Shown here in pieces: positions 11,299 to 63,643 of a stretch of DNA of 64,000 bases. The stretch's first letter is position 1. Every line of letters begins with the position of its first letter. The notes under the pieces are model-generated. The model saw only the letters and a program-made list of their open reading frames with translations. It was not told the origin of the DNA and made no database searches. The position numbers and the translations under genes were made by a program. This DNA is from Chitinophagaceae bacterium LGM1 (GTDB lineage: Bacteria; Bacteroidota; Bacteroidia; Chitinophagales; Chitinophagaceae), in contig CP075895.1 of the NCBI GenBank assembly GCA_018604165.1, forward strand, positions 1,201,501-1,265,500. Reading direction: 5' to 3'.

Positions 11299-12474
11299 AT
11301 GCAGCAAGCATACATCATAGCTGGCTACCGTACAGCAGTAACAAAATCTAAGCGGGGTGCGTTTCGCAATTATCGTCCTGATGACTTGGCAGTAGATGTG
11401 ATACGTGGCTTGCTGGCAAGCGTTCCGCAATTAGATGCCAAACTGATAGACGATGTGATAGTAGGCAATGCCGTACCCGAGGCAGAGCAGGGTTTGCAGG
11501 TGGGGCGCATTATTGCCAACCGTGCAGTGGGCGAACATGCTCCTGGTGTTACAGTCAACCGTTATTGTGCGTCGGGGTTAGAGAGCATTGCAATAGCTAC
11601 TGCAAAAATACAAACAGGGCAGGCGGAGTGCATTATAGCAGGCGGTACGGAAAGCATGAGCCTTGTACCAACGGCCGGCTGGCGAACCATGCCCAACTAC
11701 GATATTGTAAAAGAGAACGGCGACTATTACCTGAGCATGGGGCTGACGGCAGAACAGGTAGCTAAAGACTACAATGTGCCACGCGATATGCAGGATGCGT
11801 TTTCTTATTACTCGCATCAAAAAGCTATCACAGCCATCAAAGGGGGGTATTTCAAAAAAGGCATACTTCCTGTAACGGTAAAAGAAGTGTACCTGAATGA
11901 AAAGAATAAACGTAAGGAAAGAGATATAATAGTTGACACGGACGAAGGGCCGCGCGCAGATACCAGCGTGGAAGCATTAGCCAAACTGACTGCCGTGTTT
12001 GCACAAGGTGGTACGGTAACGGCTGGCAACTCTTCTCAAACATCAGATGGAGCAGCATTTGTGATAGTGATGAGTGAAAGACTGATGAACCAACTCGGCT
12101 TGCAGCCATGGGGTAGGTTAGTGGGTTGTGCAGTAGCAGGGGTAGAGCCGCGCATCATGGGTATAGGCCCGGTTGCCGCTGTGCCAAAAGTATTGCAACA
12201 AACAGGCATGAACTTGGGGCAGATAGATTTAATAGAACTGAACGAGGCGTTCGCATCACAATCGCTGGCAGTGATACGCGAACTGGAACTGAACCCTGAT
12301 ATAGTAAATATAAACGGTGGAGCCATAGCATTAGGGCATCCGTTAGGGTGCAGTGGTGCAAAGCTCACCATACAAATGCTGCACGATATGGAAAGGCTCG
12401 GGAAAAAGTACGGCATCGTTACCGCATGTGTGGGTGGCGGACAAGGTATAGCAGGCGTTATAGAAAAACTATAA
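11299..12474 (+). CDS. fadA: Acetyl-CoA acyltransferase (thiolase)
   Basis: 391 residues, full-length type I thiolase. The nucleophilic Cys90 lies in VNRYCASGLE. LIELNEAFASQS carries the conserved Asn-Glu. GGAIALGHPLGCSGA gives His347, and Cys377 in TACVGGGQG is the proton-exchanging base. It catalyses thiolytic cleavage of 3-ketoacyl-CoA in beta-oxidation, or the reverse condensation. No fadB or fadE gene is next to it. It is convergent with the DUF2490 gene (6-bp overlap). The symbol is given by family; a biosynthetic role is not excluded. Confidence 0.88.
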   Translation: MQQAYIIAGYRTAVTKSKRGAFRNYRPDDLAVDVIRGLLASVPQLDAKLIDDVIVGNAVPEAEQGLQVGRIIANRAVGEHAPGVTVNRYCASGLESIAIATAKIQTGQAECIIAGGTESMSLVPTAGWRTMPNYDIVKENGDYYLSMGLTAEQVAKDYNVPRDMQDAFSYYSHQKAITAIKGGYFKKGILPVTVKEVYLNEKNKRKERDIIVDTDEGPRADTSVEALAKLTAVFAQGGTVTAGNSSQTSDGAAFVIVMSERLMNQLGLQPWGRLVGCAVAGVEPRIMGIGPVAAVPKVLQQTGMNLGQIDLIELNEAFASQSLAVIRELELNPDIVNINGGAIALGHPLGCSGAKLTIQMLHDMERLGKKYGIVTACVGGGQGIAGVIEKL

Positions 12475-13292: not shown

Positions 13293-13628
13293 TTGATAAA
13301 AAGAACGGGACATATAATTCTTTCTGCATGGCTTGCCATACTGCTGTTGTTTGGCAGTACGCCCAAAGAATACATACACCTGTTTGCCGACCACCACGAT
13401 ACCGTACACACCCATAGCGATGCAGACGGGCTGGTGATAGAACCCCAGCACCACCACTGTAGTTTTCTCAGCTACGCGCTGCCCTTATTCATTAATGATG
13501 TACAGATAATAAAGCTGCATATACCCCGATTGGTGTATCCTGTTTACAATAGCTTTATCAGCATTACATATCTACATGCAGATGTATCTACCGCTTATTT
13601 GCGTGGTCCGCCTGCTTTTCTTTCCTGA
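13293..13628 (+). CDS. Small exported His-rich protein linked to a TonB receptor
   Basis: 111 residues. The only available start is TTG at 13293, because a stop lies three codons upstream. A hydrophobic N-terminal segment (residues 7-21) would target it to the membrane or periplasm. It then has a histidine-rich stretch: LFADHHDTVHTHSDADG and EPQHHHCSFLSY, with ten His and one Cys between residues 29 and 57. This is a plausible binding site for Zn, Cu, Ni or Fe. A recurring C-terminal LRGPP motif is present. It lies 65 bp upstream of the TonB receptor on the same strand. The composition suggests metal sensing or scavenging; no function is established. Confidence 0.7.
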   Translation: MIKRTGHIILSAWLAILLLFGSTPKEYIHLFADHHDTVHTHSDADGLVIEPQHHHCSFLSYALPLFINDVQIIKLHIPRLVYPVYNSFISITYLHADVSTAYLRGPPAFLS

Positions 13629-13693
13629 TGAATGCTATCGTATGTACAGCCCTTACTGGCAAGTGCATCAATCTTTATTTATAAGCATACAAT

Positions 13694-16030
13694 ATGTATC
13701 GGATTTTAATAGCCGTATGTATATGGCTATTCGCACACTTGCCATTTGCAAGCGCGCAAGACAATTGTAATATAATCGTTCAGTGCAGGGTGGTGGAAAC
13801 ACATAATAACCAGCCTCTGTTTCCTGTATCGGTGTACATAGACGAAATGAAGCGTGAATTTGAAACCGACGAAGACGGCAGGTTTCAGATAACGAATGCC
13901 TGTGCGGGTATATATCATATACATTTTCATGCGACGGGGTACGAGCATTTGGTAAAAGAGTTGAAGATTGAGGGGAACACAACACTCAAATTCAGTCTGG
14001 CGCATATAGATAAAGAACTGGATGAAGTGGTGGTAGCAGATGAGCACACCAAAACCATTATACAAAGTAAGAGCCAGCTAAGGCGCATGGATATAACCGC
14101 CAACAGCGGCAAAACGCTGGGCGATATGTTGCAGGCAGTAAATGGTGTTTCTGTATTATCGAACGGGGCAACAATTGCCAAGCCGGTGATACATGGTTTG
14201 TATGGCAACCGCATCATCATCCTCAACAACGGCATCAGACAGGAAGACCAGCAATGGGGCAGCGAACACGCACCGAATATTGACCCGTTTCTTGCCAATA
14301 ACATTACCGTACTGAAAGGCGCGGCAGGTGTGCGATATGGTACAGATGCCATAGGTGGTGTGGTATTGGTAGAGCCAGCTGCTGTGCGTACCATGCAAGG
14401 CTGGGGCGGTGAGGTAAATCTGGCAGGGTTCAGTAACAACCGCATGGGTGTTGCATCTGCTTTATTAGAGCATGGCTTTAAATACATCAAAGGTTTGGGT
14501 ATTCGTGTACAGGGTACATTAAAGCAAGGTGGTAATTATCGCATCCCCGGTCATTGGGCTGCCAATACCGGTACACGGGAAAGTAATTACTCTGCTACAC
14601 TGGCATATAAGAAAGCCCATTTTGGTGCAGAGGTATTTTACAGCCATTTTAATACAGAATTGGGGGTGTATCGGGGAGCGCATACGGGCAATGAAAAAGA
14701 CCTGTTGTTTGCCATCAATAGCGATACGCCTACCATCCGTGCAGGGTTTACTTACAACATTGCCCGCCCCATGCAGCACATACGCCACGATTTGTGGAAA
14801 CTAAAGCTGAATGCGGATAACAGGGCAGGTGCTTTCAGCCTTGTGTATGCTTATCAGCACAATTTCAGACAAGAGTTTGATGTGATAAGGGGCAATACTG
14901 ATAAGGCACAGCTAAACCTTACACTTAATACGCAAACACTTAATCTGAACTTTGACCACAAAGCCATCGGGCACATAACAGGACAAATAGGTATTGACGG
15001 CATCTATCAGGAAAACTATATGCAGGACGGCGACAGGTTATTTATACCCAACTACCGAAGCCCGGGCGTGGCAGCCTATGCTATAGAGCGATACAGGTGG
15101 AACAAACTGACGCTGGAAGCAGGCTTGCGTTACGACTACAGGCATTATGAGGTGTACAACCCCGAGGGCAATAATCAAGCAATAGTACGCTACGATTTTG
15201 ATTACAGTAATGCATCAGGTACTATTGGTATCAAGCATAAAATAAAGCCAAATTGGGAATGGACTGCGACGCTTGCCAATGCATGGCGCGCACCGCAAGC
15301 TAATGAACTGTTTAGCGCGGGGCTGCATCATAGTGCGGCACGTATAGAACTGGGCGATAAAAACCTGCAACCCGAAAAAGCGTATAGCCTGAATCTTGAA
15401 ACGGTTTACAATGTGCCAGATAAGTTGCACCTTGAAGCATCGCTATATACACAGTATATCAATGACTTCATCTACCTGAGCCCCGGTGCCGATATACTGA
15501 CTATAAGGGGTTACTTCAAAAGCTTCGGGTATAAACAAACCAATGCATGGCTCAACGGTGCAGATATTGCATTCAGATACAATATTGTAAAACCGCTGGA
15601 AGCAAACCTTAAAGCTTCTTTTCTGTTCGCAAGAGATGTAACGCAACAAGACTGGCTGATACTGATGCCTGCAGACCGTGTGTCAGCTGGAATAAAGTAC
15701 ACATTCAACATCAGTAAATCTCTAAAAGATGTATTTGTAGGTGTGGATGGTAGATATATTTTCAATCAATGGCGTATCCCTGCCAACTTCGATGCCATCG
15801 ACAATCCACGCCCACCTGCTGCATATACAGTGCTTGATGCCCAATGTGGTGTAACTATTTACGTTAATGGCCAGCCCTTATACACAAGTATCACCATTAT
15901 GAATGCCCTCAATCAGCAATACCGCGATTACATGGATGCATTCAGGTATTTTATTAATCAACCGGGGACAAACGTAGTTGTAAGATTTCGTGTCCCTTTC
16001 AACTTTTACGGATTAAAATCTAAAAATTAA
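13694..16030 (+). CDS. TonB-dependent outer-membrane receptor
   Basis: 778 residues. Signal peptide to about residue 21 (ASAQ), then a carboxypeptidase-regulatory-like domain (about 25-105) typical of Bacteroidota receptors. The plug domain (about 125-235) contains NGVSVLSNGATIAKPVIHG, LNNGIRQEDQQWG and VLKGAAGVRYGTDAIGGVV. The 22-stranded barrel runs to the end and closes on a terminal aromatic strand. There is no SusD partner or glycan enzyme nearby. The His-rich protein before it and the lipoprotein after it point to metal or metal-chelate import rather than a polysaccharide-utilisation locus. Confidence 0.9.
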   Translation: MYRILIAVCIWLFAHLPFASAQDNCNIIVQCRVVETHNNQPLFPVSVYIDEMKREFETDEDGRFQITNACAGIYHIHFHATGYEHLVKELKIEGNTTLKFSLAHIDKELDEVVVADEHTKTIIQSKSQLRRMDITANSGKTLGDMLQAVNGVSVLSNGATIAKPVIHGLYGNRIIILNNGIRQEDQQWGSEHAPNIDPFLANNITVLKGAAGVRYGTDAIGGVVLVEPAAVRTMQGWGGEVNLAGFSNNRMGVASALLEHGFKYIKGLGIRVQGTLKQGGNYRIPGHWAANTGTRESNYSATLAYKKAHFGAEVFYSHFNTELGVYRGAHTGNEKDLLFAINSDTPTIRAGFTYNIARPMQHIRHDLWKLKLNADNRAGAFSLVYAYQHNFRQEFDVIRGNTDKAQLNLTLNTQTLNLNFDHKAIGHITGQIGIDGIYQENYMQDGDRLFIPNYRSPGVAAYAIERYRWNKLTLEAGLRYDYRHYEVYNPEGNNQAIVRYDFDYSNASGTIGIKHKIKPNWEWTATLANAWRAPQANELFSAGLHHSAARIELGDKNLQPEKAYSLNLETVYNVPDKLHLEASLYTQYINDFIYLSPGADILTIRGYFKSFGYKQTNAWLNGADIAFRYNIVKPLEANLKASFLFARDVTQQDWLILMPADRVSAGIKYTFNISKSLKDVFVGVDGRYIFNQWRIPANFDAIDNPRPPAAYTVLDAQCGVTIYVNGQPLYTSITIMNALNQQYRDYMDAFRYFINQPGTNVVVRFRVPFNFYGLKSKN

Positions 16031-16055
16031 AAAGAACAATAAAACATTCATTAGT

Positions 16056-16634
16056 ATGAAAAACAATATTATTCGATTGACTGCTCTCACTGCATTTGCT
16101 GCAATATCTTTCACAGCTTGTAAAAAAGACAAGGTAACAACACCAGAACCTGTAGAGCAAGAACTAATAACAACCGTCAGGCTAAAAGTTACAAAGCTGG
16201 ACGATATGAGCATCAAAACCTTTACCTACAAAGTAGAAAACGGATTTGGCAGCACTAGACAGGGAACGGTAACCATAGACTCTGTAAAACTGGCAGCCAA
16301 CAAAGAGTATAGTGTGGAAGTAGAACTGCTGAACGAAAAAGAAACACCCGCAGAAGATGTAACAAAAGAAGTAAAAGAAGAAAGCAATGAGCACTTATTT
16401 GTTTATCAGTCGAGCCCAACTACAGGTAATGGTTCTATTGGCTTTGGCATGGGTAATAAAGACGGAAACGGAAATCCATTCAATCAAACCATCAGATTCC
16501 TGACAGCAGGGGCGGGTAAAGGAGCCATAACGGTTACGCTTAAACATGAGCCAACCAACAAAGCGGCTACCACTCCTGATGCCACAGGCGGAGAAACAGA
16601 CGTGGAAGCTACCTTTCCCGTTGTGCTTCAATAG
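16056..16634 (+). CDS. Lipoprotein downstream of the TonB receptor
   Basis: 192 residues. Lipobox SFTACKK puts the lipidated Cys near residue 22. The mature N-terminus has a conserved-looking EQELITTVRLKVT segment, followed by a beta-rich domain with acidic patches (EKETPAEDVTKEVKEE) and a C-terminal GETDVEATFPVVLQ strand. Similar lipoproteins follow TonB receptors in other Bacteroidota (from memory), sometimes annotated as type 1 periplasmic-binding-fold proteins. It starts 25 bp after the receptor and ends at a strong terminator, so it closes this operon. Probable surface or periplasmic partner of the receptor. Confidence 0.75.
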   Translation: MKNNIIRLTALTAFAAISFTACKKDKVTTPEPVEQELITTVRLKVTKLDDMSIKTFTYKVENGFGSTRQGTVTIDSVKLAANKEYSVEVELLNEKETPAEDVTKEVKEESNEHLFVYQSSPTTGNGSIGFGMGNKDGNGNPFNQTIRFLTAGAGKGAITVTLKHEPTNKAATTPDATGGETDVEATFPVVLQ

Positions 16635-16742: not shown

Positions 16743-17009
16743 ATGATGGCAACCCTGATAGAAAAAGAGGAAGTATCTAACTATGTGATTGTGCCTGCAT
16801 TTGTAGATAATACAGAGCATTGGCAGAAGGAATTGCAGTACGCAACCCGCCTGGGCAACGAGTTTAAGGGCAAGACGACCATAAGTTTTGAAACCACACA
16901 AGGGCCGCGAAGTATTAGTACAACGGTATGGTCTGTTACAGATAAGTTTTTGCAGATAAAAGGCGGGCAAAATATCCCCCTGAACAGCATAATAGAAGTG
17001 CATTTTTGA
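16743..17009 (+). CDS. Small soluble protein of unknown function
   Basis: 88 residues (ATG at 16743 or the adjacent ATG at 16746). No signal peptide or membrane segment. It is mixed alpha/beta with a C-terminal part resembling a small beta-barrel (FLQIKGGQNIPLNSIIEV). It lies between a terminator and the acyl-carrier-protein operon on the same strand, 112 bp before the ACP start. Probably a real conserved small gene because codon use matches its neighbours; no family recognised. Confidence 0.6.
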   Translation: MMATLIEKEEVSNYVIVPAFVDNTEHWQKELQYATRLGNEFKGKTTISFETTQGPRSISTTVWSVTDKFLQIKGGQNIPLNSIIEVHF

Positions 17010-17045: not shown

Positions 17046-17053
17046 TAGATTTG
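17046..17053 (+). promoter_or_regulatory. Candidate -7 box of the acyl operon
   Basis: TAGATTTG matches the Bacteroidota TANNTTTG -7 consensus and lies 68 bp before the ACP start. No well-spaced TTTG -33 element is seen, so confidence is limited. Confidence 0.3.
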
Positions 17054-17056
17054 CTC

Positions 17057-17074
17057 ACTGTTATTTATAACAGT
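17057..17074 (+). other. Stem-loop in the leader of the acyl operon
   Basis: ACTGTTA-TTTA-TAACAGT is a perfect 7-bp stem with a 4-nt loop. It starts just downstream of the candidate -7 box, so it may sit at the very 5' end of the operon mRNA. It lacks a T-tract directly after the stem, which argues against a simple terminator of the upstream gene. Confidence 0.4.
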
Positions 17075-17121: not shown

Positions 17122-17376
17122 ATGGATCAGCAGGAAATAATTAGCCGTATAAAGGCATTTATGGTAGAAGACTTCGAGGTGGATGAAGATGCCATAGTGC
17201 CTGAAGCTGACTTGAAAAGCACACTCGACTTAGATAGTCTTGACTACATAGATCTGGTAGTGGTCATTGAGCAAAACTTCGGCTTCAAAGTGAAACCCGA
17301 GGATTTTCAGACAATGAGTACCATGCAGGATTTCTACGATTACGTTTCAAACAGGTTAGAAGCTGCCAATGCCTGA
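17122..17376 (+). CDS. Acyl carrier protein of the acyl-chain operon
   Basis: 84 residues, acidic and helical. The phosphopantetheine attachment Ser39 sits in LDLDSLDYIDL, the ACP helix II motif. The FGFKVKPEDFQTMSTMQDFY segment is typical of dedicated ACPs in polyene or flexirubin loci rather than the housekeeping AcpP. It would carry growing chains for the ketosynthase at 19747 and the dehydratase at 18253. Its last 8 bp overlap the acyltransferase start, indicating translational coupling. First gene of a six-gene unit. Confidence 0.88.
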   Translation: MDQQEIISRIKAFMVEDFEVDEDAIVPEADLKSTLDLDSLDYIDLVVVIEQNFGFKVKPEDFQTMSTMQDFYDYVSNRLEAANA

Positions 17377-18256
17377 TACTGCAACCTGGCAGGGACGCTC
17401 GCGGGGTACTCCTTTAGGTTACAGAATATTTGTATGGCTGCTGAAAACCGGCGGCCTAAGGTCTGCATACGCACTACTGCATTTCGTTACACTTTATTAC
17501 AGGTTGTTTGTTAAATCGGCAACAGAGCCTTTGCGCTACCTGTACACCCAACGTATGGGTTATAACCCTGCCCAGGCATCGTCTCTTATCAAGAAAAATC
17601 TAATGGTTTTCGGGCAAACGCTGATTGATAAAATAGCAGTATTGTCTGGACTTGGAAAGGAATTGAGCTTTACACATGAGGGCATAGAGCATATTGAACA
17701 ATTAGTGAAAAATGGCAAGGGGGGCATATTGGTGAGTGCACACCTCGGCAACTGGGAAACAGCGGGGCATTTGTTAAAGCGTGTAGAAGCAAAGATAAAT
17801 ATTGTGATGTATGACGGCGAGGGCGAGCAGATGAAAGCCTACATGGAGCAATATGACAGCCAGCGCTCATTTAACATTATCTACATCAAAGAAGACCAAT
17901 CGCATATTTATGAAATGTCTGCCGCGCTGAACAGGAACGAACTCATTTGCCTTCATGCAGACCGCTACCGCCCGGGCAATCGTACTATGCAACATGATTT
18001 TTGGGGCGAGGAAGCACTTTTTCCTGCAGGGCCATTTATACTGGCATCTAAACTAAAAGCTCCAGTTTGCTTTGTTTTTGCTTTTAAAGAAACTAATTTC
18101 CATTATCATTTTTATGCTTTCAAGAGTAAGACTTATGAGGGTAGGGGTACGGCAGGTATGGAAATAATGCTGGATGATTACACTGCATTGGTAGAAAAAA
18201 TGCTGGAGCAGTACCCTGAACAATGGTTTAATTATTTTGATTTCTGGAAGAAATGA
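17369..18256 (+). CDS. LpxL-like lysophospholipid/lipid acyltransferase
   Basis: 295 residues. LVSAHLGNWE carries the HX4E catalytic motif (His125, Glu130) of the LpxL/HtrB lauroyl-acyltransferase family, and CLHADRYRPGNRTM is a second conserved block with the acceptor-side Arg. A hydrophobic N-terminal region (about residues 30-47) may anchor it to the inner membrane. In aryl-polyene-type loci such enzymes move the finished chain from ACP to a lipid acceptor. It overlaps the ACP gene by 8 bp, and its TGA overlaps the next ATG (ATGA). Confidence 0.82.
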   Translation: MPDTATWQGRSRGTPLGYRIFVWLLKTGGLRSAYALLHFVTLYYRLFVKSATEPLRYLYTQRMGYNPAQASSLIKKNLMVFGQTLIDKIAVLSGLGKELSFTHEGIEHIEQLVKNGKGGILVSAHLGNWETAGHLLKRVEAKINIVMYDGEGEQMKAYMEQYDSQRSFNIIYIKEDQSHIYEMSAALNRNELICLHADRYRPGNRTMQHDFWGEEALFPAGPFILASKLKAPVCFVFAFKETNFHYHFYAFKSKTYEGRGTAGMEIMLDDYTALVEKMLEQYPEQWFNYFDFWKK

Positions 18257-18669
18257 GTGAACAAGCTATTTTACAATATATACCCCAGCGTCCGCCATTT
18301 GTAATGGTTGATAATATTGTACAGGCAGACGGTACAGTGTCTGTTACCGATTTTACGGTTAGGGACGGGCATTTGTTTGTTGAAGATGGAAAGTTCACCG
18401 AGTATGGGCTGGTTGAAAATATGGCACAAACAGCCGCAGCAGGTACTGGCTATAGTTTGCAAAATGCTGGTAAGCAAGTGCCGGTTGGGTACATCGGGGC
18501 GTTGAAAGCATTAAATATCATAGCTTTGCCACAAGTAGGCGATACTATTACCACTGAAGTGAGTTTCAAAACACAGGTGTTGAATGTACATATAGTGCAA
18601 GGCAGGGTATTGAACAACGGTCAGGAAATTGCGAATTGCGAATTGAAAATATTTTTGCAGGAGTCTTAA
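18253..18669 (+). CDS. Hotdog-fold 3-hydroxyacyl-ACP dehydratase-like protein
   Basis: 138 residues with a single hotdog domain. YIPQRPPFVMVD is the N-terminal strand equivalent to the FabZ PHR.PFLLVD motif, with Gln for His as in other Bacteroidota homologues I recall. GLVENMAQTAAAGTGY is the long central helix with the catalytic-side acidic residue. Expected to dehydrate 3-hydroxyacyl-ACP intermediates made by the ketosynthase at 19747 after ketoreduction; no ketoreductase gene is present in the operon. Its start overlaps the acyltransferase stop. Confidence 0.8.
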   Translation: MSEQAILQYIPQRPPFVMVDNIVQADGTVSVTDFTVRDGHLFVEDGKFTEYGLVENMAQTAAAGTGYSLQNAGKQVPVGYIGALKALNIIALPQVGDTITTEVSFKTQVLNVHIVQGRVLNNGQEIANCELKIFLQES

Positions 18670-18683
18670 AAAAATTTCGCGTC

Positions 18684-19313
18684 ATGAAAAATATACTCTT
18701 CTTAACAGCCATGCTGTTTTCTTTCGGTGCCTTTGCCCAAAACAAAGCAGATGTATTTAACGACAACACACCCGTAACATGGTTAGGGCTTGATTTCTCA
18801 CAACTGAAATTTATTGGTGATGCCGCACAATGGCAGGATGCGGGCGAAATAACCAATAGCCAAATGCGCGACAAGTATTTCCCTGCATGGAATAGCTTGT
18901 TTGTGAATGAGAAAGATAGATATAAAGTAGCAGATGCTATCAGGCGTACGGAAGTGGCGTATGCCATTGATGTTACTGAAAAAGCCAACAACAGCCTGAA
19001 AGGTAATTTCTTTGAAAGTGATGCCAATAAGTATCAGTTGCTGGACGAACAAAAAGTAGCTGCTCTTGTTAAAAAGTATGATTTCAAAGGTAATGCAGGG
19101 GTTGGTATGCTGTTTTTTGTAGAGGGTATGAGCAAGGGTAGAGAGCAGGCATCTATGTGGGTAACGTTTGTGGATATGAAATCAAAAACAGTATTGCTTA
19201 CAAAACGTGTTGAGGGCAAATCGGGCGGTTTTGGTTTCCGCAACTATTGGGCAAAAACATTTGTAAACGTACTGAAAGAAATAAAATCGGACTGGAAAAG
19301 CTGGAGTAAATAA
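18684..19313 (+). CDS. Exported protein of unknown function within the acyl-chain operon
   Basis: 209 residues from the ATG at 18684, which gives a clean signal peptide ending FAQ (residue 19). The mature part begins NKADVFNDNTPVTWLGLDFS and is mixed alpha/beta. Features include FIGDAAQWQDAG, VAYAIDVTEKANNS and a C-terminal SGGFGFRNYWAKTF segment. There is no lipobox Cys. It occupies the place where aryl-polyene loci often carry a LolA-like lipid carrier, but I see no clear LolA motif. Gaps of 14 and 8 bp tie it to the flanking hotdog and thioesterase genes. A periplasmic partner in lipid transport is possible but unproven. Confidence 0.7.
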   Translation: MKNILFLTAMLFSFGAFAQNKADVFNDNTPVTWLGLDFSQLKFIGDAAQWQDAGEITNSQMRDKYFPAWNSLFVNEKDRYKVADAIRRTEVAYAIDVTEKANNSLKGNFFESDANKYQLLDEQKVAALVKKYDFKGNAGVGMLFFVEGMSKGREQASMWVTFVDMKSKTVLLTKRVEGKSGGFGFRNYWAKTFVNVLKEIKSDWKSWSK

Positions 19314-19321
19314 ACACCCAT

Positions 19322-19747
19322 TTGAAAAAAACACTTACACACACTACAGAATTAGAGGTAAAATTCAGCGAGGCAGACCCTTTGGGTATTGTTTGGCATG
19401 GTCATTTTATACGTTATTTTGAAGATGGCAGAGAAGCATTTGGTAATGCGTATGGGCTGAAATACCTTGATTTTTATCGTAGTGATATAGTAGTGCCTAT
19501 TATTAAGATAGACTGTAATTACAAGCGCATACTCCGCTACGGACATAAGATAAGGCTTGAAACAACGTATGAAGATTGTGCTGCAGCCAAGTTACTGTTT
19601 CACTACGCTATATACGATGCACATACCAACGAGCAAGTAGCTACCGGTAGCTCGATGCAGGTATTTATGTACCGTGAAAGCCTTGAATTGATGTGGACAC
19701 TACCACAGTTTATGATTGACTGGAAGAAAAAATGGCTTGCTGAATAA
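19322..19747 (+). CDS. Acyl-ACP/CoA thioesterase (4-hydroxybenzoyl-CoA thioesterase type)
   Basis: 141 residues, hotdog fold. FSEADPLGIVWHGHFIRYFE contains the DxxGIVxHxxYxxxxE signature of YbgC / 4-HBT thioesterases, with the catalytic Asp. No in-frame ATG lies near the start, so TTG at 19322 is used. It would release or transfer chains from the ACP. It follows the exported-protein gene by 8 bp, and its stop overlaps the ketosynthase start by 1 bp (TAATG). Confidence 0.85.
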   Translation: MKKTLTHTTELEVKFSEADPLGIVWHGHFIRYFEDGREAFGNAYGLKYLDFYRSDIVVPIIKIDCNYKRILRYGHKIRLETTYEDCAAAKLLFHYAIYDAHTNEQVATGSSMQVFMYRESLELMWTLPQFMIDWKKKWLAE

Positions 19748-20880
19748 TGTATCCCGTTTACGCCATTGCTACCAATACTACCTCTTCTTTAGGGCTTGAT
19801 ACAAAAGCTCACTGGACTGCCGCGATGCATGGTAAAACAGGTATCAGGCAACATACAGATATTGCATTAAGCAACACACCGTTTTGGGCTGCAAAGCTCG
19901 ATGCATCGCAATGGCAGTATATACAAGTCAATACTAAAACGAACACACCACTATCTCCTTTTGAACAACTGGCATTGTTTTCTGCGAAGCAGGCACTGCA
20001 AAATTGTAATCAAGAATTATTGGCGGAAGATACGCTTGTGGTATTATCTACTACAAAAGGTAATATTGAATGGCTGGAAACGCATAGCGATGACAGGCTG
20101 GCTTTACATACCAGTGCGCAACTGATAGCCAATGAATTGGGCTTATCTCACAACAAACCTGTAGTAGTTTCTCATGCTTGTGTATCGGGCGTGTTGGCTT
20201 TGGTGTATGCAATGCGAAGATTGCAGCAGGGTACACACAAACACGCCGTAGTAATAGGTTGCGACAGGTTTACGAAGTTTGTACTGAATGGGTTTCAATC
20301 TTTTCAGGCAGTAGCAGACGAACCATGCAAGCCGTTTGATGCTGACAGAAAGGGCATTAACCTCGGTGAATGTGGTGCAACAATCGTGTTGACTACACAG
20401 CCTGAAGATGTGTCATTAGCAAGGCTTTATTCAGGTGCCAGTTCAAACGACGCTAATCATATATCAGGTCCATCGCGTACGGGCGAAGAATTGGCTTTGG
20501 CTATTAATAATGCTATAAGTCAGGCAGGCATTGAAGCAACAGATATTGATATGGTTTCTGCACATGGTACGGCTACATTGTACAATGATGAGATGGAAGC
20601 GAAAGCGTTTCATCTTTGCGGATTGTCTGACGTGCCTGTGCATAGTTTTAAAGGCTATACGGGTCATACGCTTGGCGCGGCAGGCGTTTTAGAAAGTGCT
20701 ATGATAATTGAAAGCCTGCAACAACAGCAACTAATACCTTCTTTTGGTTTTAAAGAGTTGGGTGTATCCGTTGCTTTAAATGTAACCAAGGAGACCCAAG
20801 CTGCGGATATACAATACGTTCTGAAAACCTCATCTGGTTTTGGTGGTTGCAATGCCACTGCTATATGGGGCAAAGTGTAG
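19747..20880 (+). CDS. Beta-ketoacyl-ACP synthase
   Basis: 377 residues, thiolase-fold ketosynthase somewhat shorter than FabF. The catalytic triad is complete: Cys145 in VSHACVSG, His273 in SAHGTATLYND and His307 in YTGHTLGAAG. It therefore looks active in condensation, unlike chain-length-factor partners that lack the Cys. Sequence resembles the ketosynthases of aryl-polyene / flexirubin loci. Last gene of the operon that starts at 17122, convergent with the amidohydrolase gene 1 bp away. Confidence 0.88.
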   Translation: MYPVYAIATNTTSSLGLDTKAHWTAAMHGKTGIRQHTDIALSNTPFWAAKLDASQWQYIQVNTKTNTPLSPFEQLALFSAKQALQNCNQELLAEDTLVVLSTTKGNIEWLETHSDDRLALHTSAQLIANELGLSHNKPVVVSHACVSGVLALVYAMRRLQQGTHKHAVVIGCDRFTKFVLNGFQSFQAVADEPCKPFDADRKGINLGECGATIVLTTQPEDVSLARLYSGASSNDANHISGPSRTGEELALAINNAISQAGIEATDIDMVSAHGTATLYNDEMEAKAFHLCGLSDVPVHSFKGYTGHTLGAAGVLESAMIIESLQQQQLIPSFGFKELGVSVALNVTKETQAADIQYVLKTSSGFGGCNATAIWGKV

Positions 20881-20881
20881 C

Positions 20882-22066
20882 TTACTTACTCAAAGCATTT
20901 ATGGCTATCCAGCTAAACAGGCCCATGCCTGTTTCCATTGCTTGTTCGTGTATATCAAACTTGGCATTATGTACAGGAGCGGTAAACTGTTCGTTATTGA
21001 AGTTAGTACCTATACGGAAGAAGCAACCGGGAATGTGCTGCACATAGAAGCTAAAATCTTCGGCTGCCATGCGCATATCAAGAGTGTGTACATTCTCCGC
21101 ACCAATATAATCTCTTGCCCAGTCTTCAGCGAAAGTAGTGAGTGCAGGGTCGTTATATAATGCGGGATAACCCTTTGGTATTTCAACCGTCGCTTTTGCA
21201 CCGTATGCCTCACAAGTTTTGTGTATGATGTCTTCAATCCATTTATGCGCGTCATACCGCCATTTTTCATCCATCGTGCGGAGCGTACCCAGTATCTCTA
21301 CTTTGTCGGGTATTACGTTGGTAGCAAATCCGCCGGCTATCTTGCCAAATGTCAATACAGTAGGTATCAGCGGATTGGCTTTGCGAGCTACTACTTGTTG
21401 CAGTGCTACAATAACCTGTGCCGCAGTAGCAATAGGGTCAATAGTTTGGTGGGGTAGTGCGGCATGTCCGCCTTTGCCCTCTATGGTTATGTATATTTCA
21501 TCAGCACTCGCCATATACTTCCCAGCACGGAAACCTGCAGAGCCGCTTGGTAAATGCGGATACACATGCAATGCATAAATGGCTTCAGGCTTAGGATTTT
21601 CGAGTACACCAGCCGCAATCAGCAAACTTGCGCCGCCGGGGTGTTTTTCTTCTCCTTGCTGAAATATTAGTTTGATAGTTCCTTCAAATTCCTCTTTCAA
21701 CTCACTCAATATCTTTGCAGCCCCCAACAAGCAACTGCTATGTACATCATGCCCGCAAGCGTGCATTACACCATCGTTTTGAGAACGGTAAGTAGTGTCA
21801 TTTGCTTCTTGTATCGGCAATGCATCCATATCTGCACGCAGGGCTATACATCGTTTGGTTGGGTTTTTACCTTTTATTAAAGCTACAACACCAGTACCTG
21901 CAACACCTGTTTGATGTTCTATGCCCCATTCAGATAGTTTCTCAGCAATAAAAGCGGCAGTTTTATGTTCCTCAAAAGATAATTCGGGGGTGGCATGTAT
22001 ATGATGCCGTATAGCCTGTATAGCAGGATAATACTGTGCTGCTTTTTCGCGGATAATATTAATCAT
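20882..22066 (-). CDS. M20 family amidohydrolase (N-acyl-amino-acid hydrolase type)
   Basis: 394 residues. HACGHDVHSSCLLGA holds metal ligands (Cys, His), LIFQQGEEKHPGGAS the catalytic Glu pair, and LDMRMAAEDFSFYVQHIPG the C-terminal metal-binding part. The middle region is the dimerisation domain. There is no signal peptide, so it is cytoplasmic. Family members hydrolyse N-acyl amino acids or related amides (hippurate, acetyl-diaminopimelate). The start overlaps the end of the SPOR protein gene by 8 bp on the same strand. Confidence 0.88.
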   Translation of the reverse strand: MINIIREKAAQYYPAIQAIRHHIHATPELSFEEHKTAAFIAEKLSEWGIEHQTGVAGTGVVALIKGKNPTKRCIALRADMDALPIQEANDTTYRSQNDGVMHACGHDVHSSCLLGAAKILSELKEEFEGTIKLIFQQGEEKHPGGASLLIAAGVLENPKPEAIYALHVYPHLPSGSAGFRAGKYMASADEIYITIEGKGGHAALPHQTIDPIATAAQVIVALQQVVARKANPLIPTVLTFGKIAGGFATNVIPDKVEILGTLRTMDEKWRYDAHKWIEDIIHKTCEAYGAKATVEIPKGYPALYNDPALTTFAEDWARDYIGAENVHTLDMRMAAEDFSFYVQHIPGCFFRIGTNFNNEQFTAPVHNAKFDIHEQAMETGMGLFSWIAINALSK

Positions 22067-58718: not shown

Positions 58719-59642
58719 TTATCTGTTGTTTTCCACAACGGTATTGGCAAAGCTATATAGGTTGAACGATGGAGATTGTATGGCATCTTGCAGGTGTAGC
58801 AATAGTTTCGCCTTACTGTAGCCACTCATACGTCTGTGTTGTATTATCTGCCAGCAGCGCTCTGTTAATAACTGTAACTTCTTTTCGGGTACATTATTAC
58901 GTGTTGTCAGATAACTTTCTACAGCTGCTGCCAACGCTACAACACCATTGCTTTCGGTAGCTATTGTTTTGATGACGGGTGTTTCATCTTCACCATGGCT
59001 TCGCTCGTGTGCCAGTACGCGTAGTGTGCGGTACAACGTATCTGCATTATCTCTGTCGGCTTTGTTCACAACAAATACATCGGCTATTTCCATGATGCCT
59101 GCTTTCAGTGTCTGCACTTCGTCGCCTGCCTCGGGCACAAGTGCTACTACGGTGCAGTCTGCCAGTCCTGCTATCTCTACCTCGCTTTGCCCTACGCCTA
59201 CAGTTTCTACCAATATATAATCGAATGGGGCGTGTTTCACCACATCTGTTATCTCTATGATTTTAGCATGCAACCCGCCAAGTGCGCCCCTTGTTGCCAG
59301 CGAGCGTATATATACAGATGGGTGGTTGTAAAAATCTGCCATACGTATCCTGTCGCCCAGCAATGCCCCATAGTTGAAGGGCGATGAAGGATCAACCGCT
59401 ATCACGGCTATTTTCTTACCTGCAGTTATCCAATGGTGTAGCAGTGCATTTACGAGGGTGCTTTTACCCGCACCGGGCGGGCCTGTTATGCCTACAACCC
59501 TTGCGGTTTCTGTGTTCTGTAGCTGTTGCAGCAGTTGTTCATATCCATCCAAATCATTTTCGGCCATCGTAATGCCCCTTGCCAGTGCCTTGTAGCTGCC
59601 TGCTTGTATCTCTGCCAAAAGTTGTGTTATCTTGTCCTGCAC
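58719..59642 (-). CDS. meaB: Methylmalonyl-CoA mutase-associated GTPase MeaB
   Basis: 307 residues from GTG at 59642. GITGPPGAGKSTLVNALL is the P-loop, DPSSPFNYGALLGDRIRM the conserved switch region, ETVGVGQSEVEIAGLAD follows Walker B, and VVNKADRDNA is the guanine-specificity motif. It is a chaperone for the adenosylcobalamin-dependent mutase, gating cofactor loading. No mutase gene is adjacent. Divergent from the O-antigen ligase-like gene, with a 45-bp intergenic gap. Confidence 0.93.
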   Translation of the reverse strand: MQDKITQLLAEIQAGSYKALARGITMAENDLDGYEQLLQQLQNTETARVVGITGPPGAGKSTLVNALLHHWITAGKKIAVIAVDPSSPFNYGALLGDRIRMADFYNHPSVYIRSLATRGALGGLHAKIIEITDVVKHAPFDYILVETVGVGQSEVEIAGLADCTVVALVPEAGDEVQTLKAGIMEIADVFVVNKADRDNADTLYRTLRVLAHERSHGEDETPVIKTIATESNGVVALAAAVESYLTTRNNVPEKKLQLLTERCWQIIQHRRMSGYSKAKLLLHLQDAIQSPSFNLYSFANTVVENNR

Positions 59643-59687
59643 TAAAAATGGTTTACACCCGTTATAGAGTAATTATATTACCCATTG

Positions 59688-60935
59688 ATGGACAAAAATA
59701 ATCCTCTTAGCCAATTTATTACTGTAAAAAGCAATCTGGCTTTGACATGTTGCATTGGTATGTTAGCCAGTTTCTTTTTATCGAGAGTTTGGTTGTCAAG
59801 TTTCATGGCTGCTTTTGGTTTGGTTGCTCTAGCAGGTATTCATCCTAAAAAATGGTTTTCGGACAAATGGTGGCTCATTGGTTTTGCGTGGTTAGGTATG
59901 TATGGTATTTCATTTTTCTGGTCGGATAACAAAGCAGATTGGCTGAACGCCTATACTGTAAAATCTCCAGTCTTACTGTTACCATTGGCATTTGCCTTAT
60001 TGCATGCATTCTCTGCCAAGCAGTTGCGCATATTCACCATGAGTGGTTGTATCATTATGTTGCTAGTAGTTGGCTACAGCCTGCATTTTTATCTTGAAAA
60101 TCCCACCTACTATGCCGAGCAATACGTGTACTCGCATATATTCCCTACACTGCCAGATAACGACCATATACGCCATAGCCTATCCATCAGCCTGTTTGTA
60201 GTATGGTGTGTGTATGCATGGGTGTTTTTAGATAATCGTTTGCAGCGATGGTTGGTAGGTGTTACAGTACTGGCGTTGAGTGTATACCTGCATATATTGG
60301 CTGCCCGCACAGGTTTGGTGGTGTGGTATCTCTTTGTGTTTTTGTGGGTAATGCGTTATGCCATGAAGAAGAGTTTTGTTGCAGGGGTGGGTTTGCTGGC
60401 AGTTTTATGCATCTCAGCATTCGTTGCGGTAAAAACAATACCCACATTGGAAAAGAAAGTATGGTATGTTACCCACAGCATAGAGTTATACAAGCAAGGT
60501 AATATGCAGTCGGGTTATAGCGATATTGGCAGGCTTATATCTTACAAAGTAGCGGGTGGTGTTATTGCCGCTAATCCCGCATTGGGTGTTGGCAGTGGTG
60601 ATATGCGTACTGAAATGCTGAAAGGTTATGATGCTAAATTCAAAGAAGTACCCCAAGAATACCGCCTACTGCCGCACAACCAATTTTTTATTGTCATGTT
60701 GGCTACTGGTTTGATTGGTGTTGTATTATTTACCATCTGGGTTATCATGCCGCTTAGCTGGCTTAAAGATGGCAAGCGTACTTTCTACCTTTTTGTAACC
60801 TGGTTTGTGCTAGTACTTACGCTGCTTATAGAGCCGATGCTGGAAGTACAATACGGTGTATTCGTATATTTGTTTTTCCTGCTGTGGATAAGGCACGCCA
60901 TCCGCACAGGCGAAAACATTTACAGGCATGACTAA
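59688..60935 (+). CDS. O-antigen ligase family membrane protein
   Basis: About 415 residues from the ATG at 59688 (a TTG at 59685 is adjacent). About 11-12 membrane helices and a large periplasmic loop near residues 260-330 containing NPALGVGSGDMRTEML and RLLPHNQFFIVMLATGLIG. The loop and its H-N-Q pattern (LPHNQ) match Wzy_C / WaaL ligases that transfer polysaccharides to lipid A or proteins. Overlaps the LON-domain gene by 8 bp. Fits with the WecA- and WecB-like genes nearby. Confidence 0.85.
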   Translation: MDKNNPLSQFITVKSNLALTCCIGMLASFFLSRVWLSSFMAAFGLVALAGIHPKKWFSDKWWLIGFAWLGMYGISFFWSDNKADWLNAYTVKSPVLLLPLAFALLHAFSAKQLRIFTMSGCIIMLLVVGYSLHFYLENPTYYAEQYVYSHIFPTLPDNDHIRHSLSISLFVVWCVYAWVFLDNRLQRWLVGVTVLALSVYLHILAARTGLVVWYLFVFLWVMRYAMKKSFVAGVGLLAVLCISAFVAVKTIPTLEKKVWYVTHSIELYKQGNMQSGYSDIGRLISYKVAGGVIAANPALGVGSGDMRTEMLKGYDAKFKEVPQEYRLLPHNQFFIVMLATGLIGVVLFTIWVIMPLSWLKDGKRTFYLFVTWFVLVLTLLIEPMLEVQYGVFVYLFFLLWIRHAIRTGENIYRHD

Positions 60936-61572
60936 TTTTATACCCGTTTTTCCTCTCGAAATAGTAGTGTTCCCAGGCGAGAAGCTGAACCTGCACATTT
61001 TTGAACCTCGCTACAAACAAATGATAAAAGACTGTGTTGAACTCAAAAAGCCATTTGGCTTACCACCTGTCTTTGGCAACAAACCATCAGAGTATGGCAC
61101 ACTGATGGAAATATTAGAAGTAGCCAATGTATATGATAATGGCGAGATGGACATCCGCACACAAGGTGTTAGTGTATTCAACGTATTGGAGTATGTAAAG
61201 CAAATACCCGATAAGCTATATGCAGGGGCTATTGTAAGCTATCCTGATAATGTAATGGCACATGGCGATACGCAGCTTTCAAAACTGCTGATGAACGAGG
61301 TAAAACGCCTGTACACATTAGTAAACCTTGAACATAAATTTCCTGCCGACAAAACAGCAATGGTATCATACGAAATAGCTCATCTTGTGGGTATGACCAA
61401 AGAACAGGAATACGAAATGCTGCAACTGATGACTGAACTGCAAAGGTTGGAATACATCAGGCGGCACTTGAAAAACGTAATACCTGTTGTGCAGGAACTG
61501 GAAGCCATGAAAGAAAGGGTGCAGCGAAATGGTCATTTCCGCAACCTGAACCCCGGCGACTTTAATTTGTAA
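60928..61572 (+). CDS. LON N-terminal-domain protein without protease
   Basis: 214 residues made of the LON substrate-binding (PUA-like) domain only: IPVFPLEIVVFPGEKLNLHI, FEPRYKQMIKDC and the helical second half (KFPADKTAMVSYEIAHLVG). There is no AAA+ ATPase or Ser-Lys protease domain. Such single-domain proteins are common and poorly understood. It starts inside the ligase gene (8-bp overlap), so translation may be coupled. Confidence 0.88.
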   Translation: MTNFIPVFPLEIVVFPGEKLNLHIFEPRYKQMIKDCVELKKPFGLPPVFGNKPSEYGTLMEILEVANVYDNGEMDIRTQGVSVFNVLEYVKQIPDKLYAGAIVSYPDNVMAHGDTQLSKLLMNEVKRLYTLVNLEHKFPADKTAMVSYEIAHLVGMTKEQEYEMLQLMTELQRLEYIRRHLKNVIPVVQELEAMKERVQRNGHFRNLNPGDFNL

Positions 61573-61656
61573 TGCCTTGATTAATAAATCGTACAAGCTG
61601 TGATTTTATCAATGTTTTTACTATTTTAGCCTACTCTCAAATAAAAAATAATAGTT

Positions 61657-62403
61657 ATGTCTGTAAATCTTTGTATTGATTGGGGTAACAGCAGGATAAA
61701 AGTAGGTGTAATGAATGCCGAAGACCATCTGCTGGACTTGCACCGCTTTTCTGAAGAAGGCATCAGAGAGGGCATAGCACACATCATTAACGAATACAAG
61801 CCATCTAAAGCTATTGTATGCTCTGTTACAGAAAAGTCGGCCGCTATAGAGCCATTGTTAAAAGAAAGCCTTCGTGCTGTTATAGTATTGAATAACAATA
61901 CACCCGTACCTATTATGAATGCTTACAGCTCTCCGGGTACGTTGGGTGCAGACAGGGTAGCATTGGCAGTAGGGGCTTATATGGCAAACCCCGGTAACAA
62001 CAATCTGGTAGTATGTCTTGGTAGCTGCATCACATACAATTTTGTTCAAAAGAATAAAACATTCCGTGGCGGAGCTATCTCTCCGGGTTTACATATGCGT
62101 TTGCAGGCTATGCATCACTTTACAGATAAATTGCCCGATGTAAAGCCGGAAGGCGATTTATTACTATTGGGCTATGATACTGAAACAGGTATGCGTAGCG
62201 GTGCAGTATACGGTATGTCGGCAGAAATTGACGGTATCATCAGCGAATATGCCGCTCAATACGCCGATTTTAACGCCATATTAACCGGCGGCGATGCACC
62301 TTTCTTTGAAGGCAAGCTGAAAAGTAAGATATTTGCAGACCCTAATCTGTTGATGAAAGGGCTAAATATAATACTGAAGCATAATGCGCCACATATTCGC
62401 TAA
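61657..62403 (+). CDS. coaX: Type III pantothenate kinase
   Basis: 248 residues. CIDWGNSRIKVGVMN is the ATP-phosphate loop of CoaX, SSPGTLGADRVALAVGAY the pantothenate-binding motif, CLGSCITYNFV corresponds to the DxGTA(I/T)T block, and FRGGAISPGLHMRLQAM completes the site. In CLGSCITYNF the usual Asp (DxGT) is Gly-Ser, which may reduce activity. It phosphorylates pantothenate in CoA synthesis. Its last 20 bp overlap the next gene, a Bacteroidota arrangement (coaX, OMP, lptC). Confidence 0.85.
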   Translation: MSVNLCIDWGNSRIKVGVMNAEDHLLDLHRFSEEGIREGIAHIINEYKPSKAIVCSVTEKSAAIEPLLKESLRAVIVLNNNTPVPIMNAYSSPGTLGADRVALAVGAYMANPGNNNLVVCLGSCITYNFVQKNKTFRGGAISPGLHMRLQAMHHFTDKLPDVKPEGDLLLLGYDTETGMRSGAVYGMSAEIDGIISEYAAQYADFNAILTGGDAPFFEGKLKSKIFADPNLLMKGLNIILKHNAPHIR

Positions 62404-63643
62404 GCGTCTGCCCGTTGCAATACTTTTTTTTACTGCTATCACCACACAGGCACAAAACTCAAATAAAGAGAACTCGCCCTATTCTAGGTTTGGCATAGGA
62501 GAGTTGCGCAACAGCAATAACGTAATGCTGAAAGGTATGGGTAGTATTTCATCTGCCTATGCCAGTCCTGTAAACGTTAATACTGCCAATCCGGCATCCT
62601 ACGCCTCTCTCATACTAACTTCATTTGAAGCCGCAGGAGAGGGCAACAGGCGTACAGTAAAAGCGGCAAATGACAAGTATCAGACAGGGATGGCAACATT
62701 GTCATATATGCATGTAGGTATACCTATGGGTAAATATGCAGGTATGGCACTGGGTTTGAGGCCTGTATCTCGTGTGTATTACAAACTGAATGATACCACC
62801 AATGTAGATAGCTTCGGCAAAGCCATCAAAGGCTATACAGGTGATGGGTCGCTCAATCAGGGTTTTATAGGTTTTGCAGGCAAATATGGTGGCTTAAGCC
62901 TCGGCTTTAACTTTGGCTATATTTTCGGTACAATAGAACATATCAGCACGCTGGACCCTTATGATGAAAGTAGCAAAGTGCTGGGTGCAGGCTTCCTAAA
63001 ACGCACAGAAATTGGTGGAATCAATTGGGATGCAGGTGCTATGTACGATGATAAGCTAACTGATAAATTATCTATCAGAGGTGGTGTAACTATGAGTGCA
63101 TCACAATCGCTGAAAGCAAACAGAAGTGAGCATTGGATAGCATACCGTAATGTACAGGATACAATTCTTAGCCAGGGAACATCAGGCAAAATTATCCTCC
63201 CGACAAACTATAGTGCAGGTATACAGCTCTATAGTGGCAGCAAATGGGTAGCAGGTATAAACTATGCAGGTGCCAGTTGGAGCCAATACCGTTATTTAGG
63301 TTCAACAGACTCATTAGCGGCTGCTACCTACAAGCTAAGTGCAGGCGCAGAGTACACACCAGACATTAATGCCATGAGAAAATATTTTCAACGTGTTACC
63401 TACAGGCTAGGTGGGTATTACGGTACAGACCCTGTAATGCTGAGGGGTACACAGCTGAACTATTACGCGGTGACAGCAGGTTTGAGTTTACCTTTCAAAA
63501 AAAATGTAGCACGTATACACACATCTTTTGAGTTTGGTAGCAGGGGTACATTAACCAATGGCTTGCTACGCGAAAACTTTGTACGATTCGGGCTTGGGTT
63601 GTCGTTTAATGATAAATGGTTTATCAAACGCAAGTATGAATAG
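62384..63643 (+). CDS. Outer-membrane beta-barrel protein between coaX and lptC
   Basis: 419 residues. Signal peptide to about residue 23 (TQAQ), mature start NSPYSRFGIGELRNSNN, then many amphipathic strands (GLSLGFNFGYIFG, VRFGLGLSFNDKWF) ending in a basic tail KRKYE. PYSRFGIGE and MGSISSAYASP recall FadL/OmpP1-like transporters of Bacteroidota. Probably an outer-membrane pore or hydrophobic-substrate transporter. Overlaps coaX by 20 bp and lptC by 8 bp, suggesting one message. Confidence 0.82.
   Translation: MRHIFAKRLPVAILFFTAITTQAQNSNKENSPYSRFGIGELRNSNNVMLKGMGSISSAYASPVNVNTANPASYASLILTSFEAAGEGNRRTVKAANDKYQTGMATLSYMHVGIPMGKYAGMALGLRPVSRVYYKLNDTTNVDSFGKAIKGYTGDGSLNQGFIGFAGKYGGLSLGFNFGYIFGTIEHISTLDPYDESSKVLGAGFLKRTEIGGINWDAGAMYDDKLTDKLSIRGGVTMSASQSLKANRSEHWIAYRNVQDTILSQGTSGKIILPTNYSAGIQLYSGSKWVAGINYAGASWSQYRYLGSTDSLAAATYKLSAGAEYTPDINAMRKYFQRVTYRLGGYYGTDPVMLRGTQLNYYAVTAGLSLPFKKNVARIHTSFEFGSRGTLTNGLLRENFVRFGLGLSFNDKWFIKRKYE

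Follow-up and report, generated by a model that had tools for sequence, protein, structure and literature searches.

A six-gene row in the genome of Chitinophagaceae bacterium LGM1 is very probably the flxD–flxI module, the central part of the pathway to the yellow-orange pigment flexirubin, which in this bacterium and its near relatives is scattered across some ten genomic sites. The row lies in a stretch of 64,000 nucleotides, hereafter the window, which spans positions 1,201,501 to 1,265,500 of contig CP075895.1 (G000:C1:1201501-1265500), the single contig of this 3.32-Mb genome (G000). An earlier note on this DNA had described the six genes as a minimal acyl-chain operon, either a separate lipid-tailoring set or part of a split locus. 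Our assignment draws on the gene families, their order, the other parts of the pathway found elsewhere in the genome, co-occurrence across genomes, and joint absence in one congener. The flexirubin pathway itself is known; its scattered arrangement is the new part.

The six-gene module and its counterparts in relatives

All six genes lie on the forward strand and are packed as the earlier note had described, with junctions of -8, -4, +14, +8 and -1 bp in order. They encode an acyl carrier protein (ACP; 17122..17376, PF00550 at 2e-10) with a DSL motif, an LpxL/HtrB-like acyltransferase (17369..18256, PF03279 at 2e-18) with an HX4E motif at 125-130, a FabZ-like hotdog 3-hydroxyacyl-ACP dehydratase (DH; 18253..18669, NCBIfam FabZ at 2e-8) that keeps the His and Glu, an exported protein of 209 amino acids with a signal peptide by inspection, here called X (18684..19313), a 4HBT hotdog thioesterase (TE; 19322..19747, PF13279 at 5e-14) with a TTG start and a DPLGIVWHGHF motif, and a beta-ketoacyl-ACP synthase (KS2, for the second ketosynthase, KS; 19747..20880, PF02801 at 7e-23 and PF00109 at 4e-12). 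Pfam gives zero families for the hotdog dehydratase and for X. The ketosynthase has a complete C-H-H triad (C145, H273, H307), which bears out its earlier description as active-site-complete, and all three motifs are found in 55 of the 58 KS2 proteins checked, the check failing in L129, L132 and L144. We name the genes flxD to flxI by position because the gene order of relatives counts them so, matching the published F dehydratase and I ketosynthase.

Members of three further genera in the family (G017, G020 and G022) carry these six genes, in unchanged order, inside a larger cluster. The left part of that cluster holds an ammonia lyase, a ketoreductase (KR) and KS1, followed by ACP, LpxL, DH, X, TE and KS2; the right part holds an O-methyltransferase (OMT), a flavin adenine dinucleotide (FAD) enzyme, u216, an ACP, KS3, a chain length factor (CLF), a polysaccharide deacetylase, LolA and u211. 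A fourth genus (G023) has a similar row, but with about 8 kb between LpxL and DH. Judged by its genes, the larger cluster is the flexirubin cluster, because the gene kinds match the naming in Chitinophaga pinensis in the available excerpts of PMC3992019, where flxA is the lyase, FlxB the reductase, FlxC and FlxI are among the ketosynthases, FlxF and FlxS are dehydratases, and flxP–flxU comprise deacetylase, acyltransferase, LolA, glycosyltransferase and exporter.

A scan with the acyltransferase alignment extended this comparison to 80 named loci, the best 80 of at least 580 confirmed relatives. Profiles of 22 cluster genes reveal a contiguous arrangement in Chitinophaga, Flavihumibacter, Hymenobacter, Chryseolinea and others among these loci. 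In 79 of the 80, LpxL is preceded by an ACP at a distance of no more than 200 nt, and the exact order LpxL-DH-X-TE-KS2 occurs in 30; in 24 of these 30, KS1 stands no more than 2.5 kb upstream, and in six it does not. Relatives thus do hold these genes, in this order, within a full flexirubin cluster, which the earlier note had named as the sign of a known locus fragment. Within the genus, the six genes and a conserved gene of 88 amino acids to their left keep order and strand in all ten other loci fetched, and all six frames are open in those ten loci at 60–96% identity. Since order and strand are kept in these ten and the order recurs in 30 of the 80 named loci, the row is not a chance arrangement.

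Across 59 genomes, an ortholog of the flexirubin KS1 (at least 63% identity) occurs in 24 and an LpxL ortholog (at least 45% identity) in 23, all 23 of which have KS1. Both genes are thus present in 23 genomes, KS1 only in one, LpxL only in none and neither in 35; among the 35 genomes without a KS1 ortholog no LpxL ortholog was found. The sole KS1-only genome, G002, most likely has a hole in its assembly at the operon site, because genes that flank the operon are missing there as well: the TonB receptor, the 88-amino-acid gene and the M20 gene were not found, and the flanking isocitrate dehydrogenase has no close match, the one match being a relative at 35%.

One member of the same genus, G003, shows what the site looks like when empty. 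The module is bordered on the left by the 88-amino-acid gene (16743..17009, forward strand) and on the right by an M20 amidohydrolase (20882..22066, reverse strand; TIGR01891 at 378 bits, cut-off 154), both outside the module. These two genes adjoin each other in G003, 74 nt apart versus 3,872 nt in the window. None of the six markers tested (FlxA, LpxL, the FAD enzyme, the deacetylase, DarB and FlxY) was found in this assembly (97% complete, 90 contigs), the sole match being a lyase at 40%; markers from the 1,663-, 1,911- and 2,068-kb places described below fell outside the test.

The scattered pathway and its probable origin

The earlier note had listed a ketoreductase, an ammonia lyase, a glycosyltransferase and an exporter as missing. 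This is so locally, but homologs of each lie elsewhere in the genome, and the option of a split locus proved to be the right one: the remaining genes were found at nine further sites. With the window these make ten places on one contig, the closest pair separated by about 66 kb, and the polyene genes do not form one contiguous locus in this genome. FlxA, a tyrosine ammonia-lyase (NF053541, 810 bits, cut-off 700; 189.6 kb), stands with FlxB, a dedicated ketoreductase (NF053542, 388 bits, cut-off 340), and KS1 at 189.6–193.8 kb. The O-methyltransferase, the FAD enzyme, u216, KS3 and CLF follow at 351.0–356.3 kb, a homolog of the exporter (41% over the piece searched) at 1,662.7 kb, homologs of the glycosyltransferase (59%) and of a 561-amino-acid gene (62%) at 1,910.6–1,913.0 kb, the deacetylase, LolA, u211 and a second dehydratase (DH2) at 1,979.1–1,981.5 kb, a homolog of the second FAD gene (48%) at 2,068.4 kb, and FlxY, a 4-coumarate-CoA ligase (NF053551, 620 bits, cut-off 520), at 2,548.4–2,549.8 kb. 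The model LolA2_flexi is also matched in the genome (NF053544, 201 bits, cut-off 125).

DarB (NF053539, 570 bits, cut-off 550; 1,739 kb) lies at 1,737.7–1,739.8 kb with a DarA-like neighbour (L084 7708-8637) that has no Pfam or NCBIfam match. We label this neighbour a probable DarA because it stands beside DarB here and because the neighbour of darB in 29 of the 80 named loci matches its profile. At 2,270.6–2,273.2 kb (L025 8625-11184) lies a second ACP-KS-CLF set, so that the genome holds two KS/CLF pairs, this one with its own ACP and another at L026 9052-11300; around the compact clusters of G017, G020 and G022, the fetched stretches show a single pair. The genome has one LpxL ortholog, its one further match being 23% identical, and the FlxA-like lyase is likewise single, a second lyase being 39% identical to FlxA. 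A match to the KS3 profile about 5 kb upstream in the window is most likely a thiolase (11299-12474) and was set aside.

How widespread is this arrangement? The six markers, followed in 17 genomes, are scattered in ten (G000, G002, G006, G007, G013, G014, G015, G025, Taibaiella soli and T. koreensis), compact in six (G017, G020, G022, G023, C. varians and Flavihumibacter petaseus) and absent in one (G003). Distances between markers are certain in G000 and G006, genomes of one and two contigs; elsewhere many markers are merely on separate contigs. Scattering is not complete in G007 and G014, where the FlxA and FAD markers share a contig, about 32 and about 26 kb apart. The compact genomes too keep some genes apart, DarB lying outside the cluster in five of the six (in G017 about 11 kb away) and FlxY outside it in G023. 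Partial splits are seen elsewhere as well: in G021 (L068/L069/L042) the X, TE, OMT and FAD genes are on a contig other than that of LpxL, as is X in G054 (L071/L046).

In an acyltransferase tree of 99 rows, rooted for drawing only, the scattered rows number 23, and 22 of them group together on a single branch (97% support in the Shimodaira–Hasegawa-like approximate likelihood ratio test, a quick method); the tree excludes the same-genome copies L031, L033, L036 and L044 and keeps near-copies such as L037 and L087. The 23rd row, L154, falls outside this branch and is doubtful, being classed as scattered solely on the ground that neither KS1 nor an ACP was detected nearby. A single break-up in the clade of Taibaiella and its kin would be the simplest reading of this tree. 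Most likely the ancestor had one large cluster, which was broken up in the Taibaiella-like clade and of which the window operon is a surviving piece. We lean, with some reserve, towards a fuller account, in which a pigment pathway of about 25 genes was broken once, in the ancestor of Taibaiella and its kin, into some ten modules that are unlinked and seem to have promoters of their own; these modules have since been retained as a set and, in one congener or more, lost as a set, so that the cluster was dissolved while its function was retained.

The sequences upstream of the modules bear on their separate expression. A candidate promoter element, TAGATTTG, lies upstream of the ACP gene (17046..17053, forward strand) and fits TAnnTTTG, which we take to be the -7 type consensus of Bacteroidota. 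The element is present upstream of the ACP in all 11 aligned sequences of the genus, window included, and upstream of five of seven modules, against an expectation of about 0.1 for each stretch (P 1e-4, taking the rate in the window); the exporter, glycosyltransferase/561-amino-acid and second FAD modules were outside this check. Directly after the candidate element, a perfect inverted repeat (ACTGTTATTTATAACAGT, 17057-17074) is partly kept in the genus and could possibly serve as an operator. No obvious operator is shared among the seven upstream stretches inspected.

Proposed mechanism and alternative readings

The families of the genes, together with published work on flexirubin and aryl polyenes, suggest how the dispersed parts would act together. 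FlxA at 189.6 kb would convert tyrosine to 4-coumarate and FlxY at 2,548 kb would activate it, and the coumaroyl starter would be loaded on an ACP such as that of the window. The ketosynthases, FlxI of the window among them, would extend the starter to an aryl polyene with FlxB and the window dehydratase FlxF, and the window thioesterase may release or proof-read chains. DarB and the probable DarA at 1,738 kb would make the dialkylresorcinol; flexirubin is an aryl polyene ester of a dialkylresorcinol and shifts its colour in alkali. The LpxL-like FlxE would most likely act at the membrane, transferring an acyl or a polyenoyl group. Our literature search on LpxL found nothing. As to the thioesterase step, deletion of ApeK in Escherichia coli causes only partial loss of pigment, according to the excerpts of PMC8253772. 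The exported X may assist periplasmic or outer-membrane handling with LolA2 and the exporter, and the whole pathway would operate in trans, its parts expressed from some ten transcription units at separate sites.

Several observations weigh against this assignment. None of the six window proteins is named by a curated model, the dehydratase reaches 34 bits against the NCBIfam FabZ model with its cut-off of 113, and the flx letters are positional, counted along the gene order of relatives. The 351-kb module is without the second ACP seen in compact clusters, and the additional ACP-KS-CLF set at 2,271 kb means that one ketosynthase set could serve another product. By genus KS1 and LpxL occur in identical sets (11 of 44; Fisher test 1e-10), a value that ignores kinship, and the joint absence of markers concerns a single genome, the 97% complete, 90-contig assembly of G003.

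Another reading is that the module works for a distinct though related aryl polyene or lipid produced alongside flexirubin, the 2,271-kb KS/CLF pair being one conceivable partner. The presence of two KS/CLF sets in the genome fits this, as does the moving apart of module parts in relatives such as G021, whose X and TE genes lie with the O-methyltransferase and FAD genes on a contig without LpxL; we nevertheless consider it unlikely, given the one LpxL ortholog and one FlxA-like lyase in the genome and a gene order in relatives that is that of the flexirubin cluster. More improbable still is a separate lipid-tailoring operon, unrelated to pigment and borrowing FabG and FabD. LpxL homologs are lipid acyltransferases, the module has an ACP and a KS of its own, and throughout one branch of the acyltransferase tree, 22 rows in all, it is free-standing. 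However, LpxL is never found without the flexirubin KS1 in the 59 genomes and is missing in G003 along with five further markers of the pathway, the module sits within the flexirubin cluster in relatives, and the dedicated FlxB, above the cut-off of its own model, speaks against the borrowing of FabG that the earlier note had suggested; on co-occurrence and genomic context we reject a free-standing lipid operon.

We give almost no credence to a dead remnant of a disused flexirubin cluster. The module does stand alone, and X is gone in G001, G013 and L089, but we reject this reading on conservation: the six frames remain open in the ten other loci of the genus, the catalytic motifs are intact, the -7-like element recurs in 11 of 11 sequences, and the rest of the pathway is kept in the genome. 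A flxD–flxI module at work in a dispersed flexirubin pathway accordingly stays our preferred reading.

What would such a dispersal mean in practice? Tools that mine genomes search for biosynthetic genes lying next to one another, and would probably report this pathway in the Taibaiella clade as several odd fragments. Inflated cluster counts in Taibaiella are a possible consequence; the genus ranks second in its phylum for cluster load, according to the excerpts of PMC9248904. The clade also offers a natural test of why pathways cluster, its genes being unlinked, yet kept jointly and once absent jointly.

Protein X, neighbouring genes and known systems

With X, an unannotated exported family is now tied to flexirubin loci. 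The protein has a signal peptide and, by eye, no lipobox; it has no Pfam or NCBIfam match and no sequence relative in the PDB at E values up to 1. Its AlphaFold model, built with 36 sequences, is confident, with a predicted local distance difference test score of 92 and a predicted template modelling (TM) score of 0.87. The best fold matches are HpaA (Z 7.0), CsgG (6.9), PelC (6.8) and PqiC (6.3), all below 8, and most of those at Z 5–7 are proteins of the periplasm or the outer membrane (HpaA, CsgG, PelC, FlgT, PqiC, TolB and LptE); unrelated cytoplasmic folds score just below them, at Z 4–5. By Foldseek the best E value is 5e-4, with TM scores up to 0.47 among the matches listed. The modelled likeness to PelC, CsgG and PqiC is thus middling, below the level of kinship, and may reflect merely a common arrangement.

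X is present in 19 of the 59 genomes, in 11 of the 15 of the same genus (its own included) and in 35 of the 80 named loci. It is cleanly absent between DH and TE in the three scattered-clade members G001, G013 and L089 (L067 9056-12154, L079 3492-5471 and L089). DarA and DarB stand side by side in 29 of the 80 loci, only one of which, L119, has X. Because it is missing in those three members and in 28 of these 29 loci, X is probably helpful rather than essential.

Two further groups of genes in the window deserve mention. At 13293-16634, a TonB-dependent receptor lies between a short His-rich open reading frame of 111 amino acids and a lipoprotein-like one of 192 amino acids, and by eye the trio resembles a metal-uptake group. 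At 58719-63643, genes for MeaB, a LON-substrate-domain protein, a type III pantothenate kinase and an unnamed protein stand in the same order as at L052 3713-8154, which in G022 adjoins the flexirubin cluster; this likeness may go back to an old neighbourhood or be due to chance.

In the open-access PMC literature we found no report of scattered flexirubin genes, and in the literature searched none on the pigment type of Taibaiella. The nearest statement, in the excerpts of PMC6767994, places flexirubin loci in one cluster in Flavobacterium johnsoniae and in two in C. pinensis.

In conclusion, the arrangement described here combines familiar parts in an unfamiliar layout. It resembles flxA–flxY of C. 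pinensis in its gene kinds, the order being read from other Chitinophaga species, and the FlxA, FlxB, FlxY, LolA2 and DarB models of that pathway are matched in G000; C. pinensis, however, has one main cluster and a dar locus, as given in the excerpts of PMC3992019, whereas G000 has about ten places. The F. johnsoniae-type cluster, seen here through flavobacterial loci among L129–L165, likewise holds KR-KS1-ACP-LpxL, dehydratases, TE and KS2 in one locus, but has DarA-DarB inserted after LpxL, and X was not detected there. The ApeA–R system of E. coli CFT073, as set out in the excerpts of PMC8253772, shares ACP, acyltransferases, dehydratase, thioesterase, ketosynthase, a LolA-like chaperone and a resistance-nodulation-division transporter, while differing in its 4-hydroxybenzoate starter and its single contiguous cluster.

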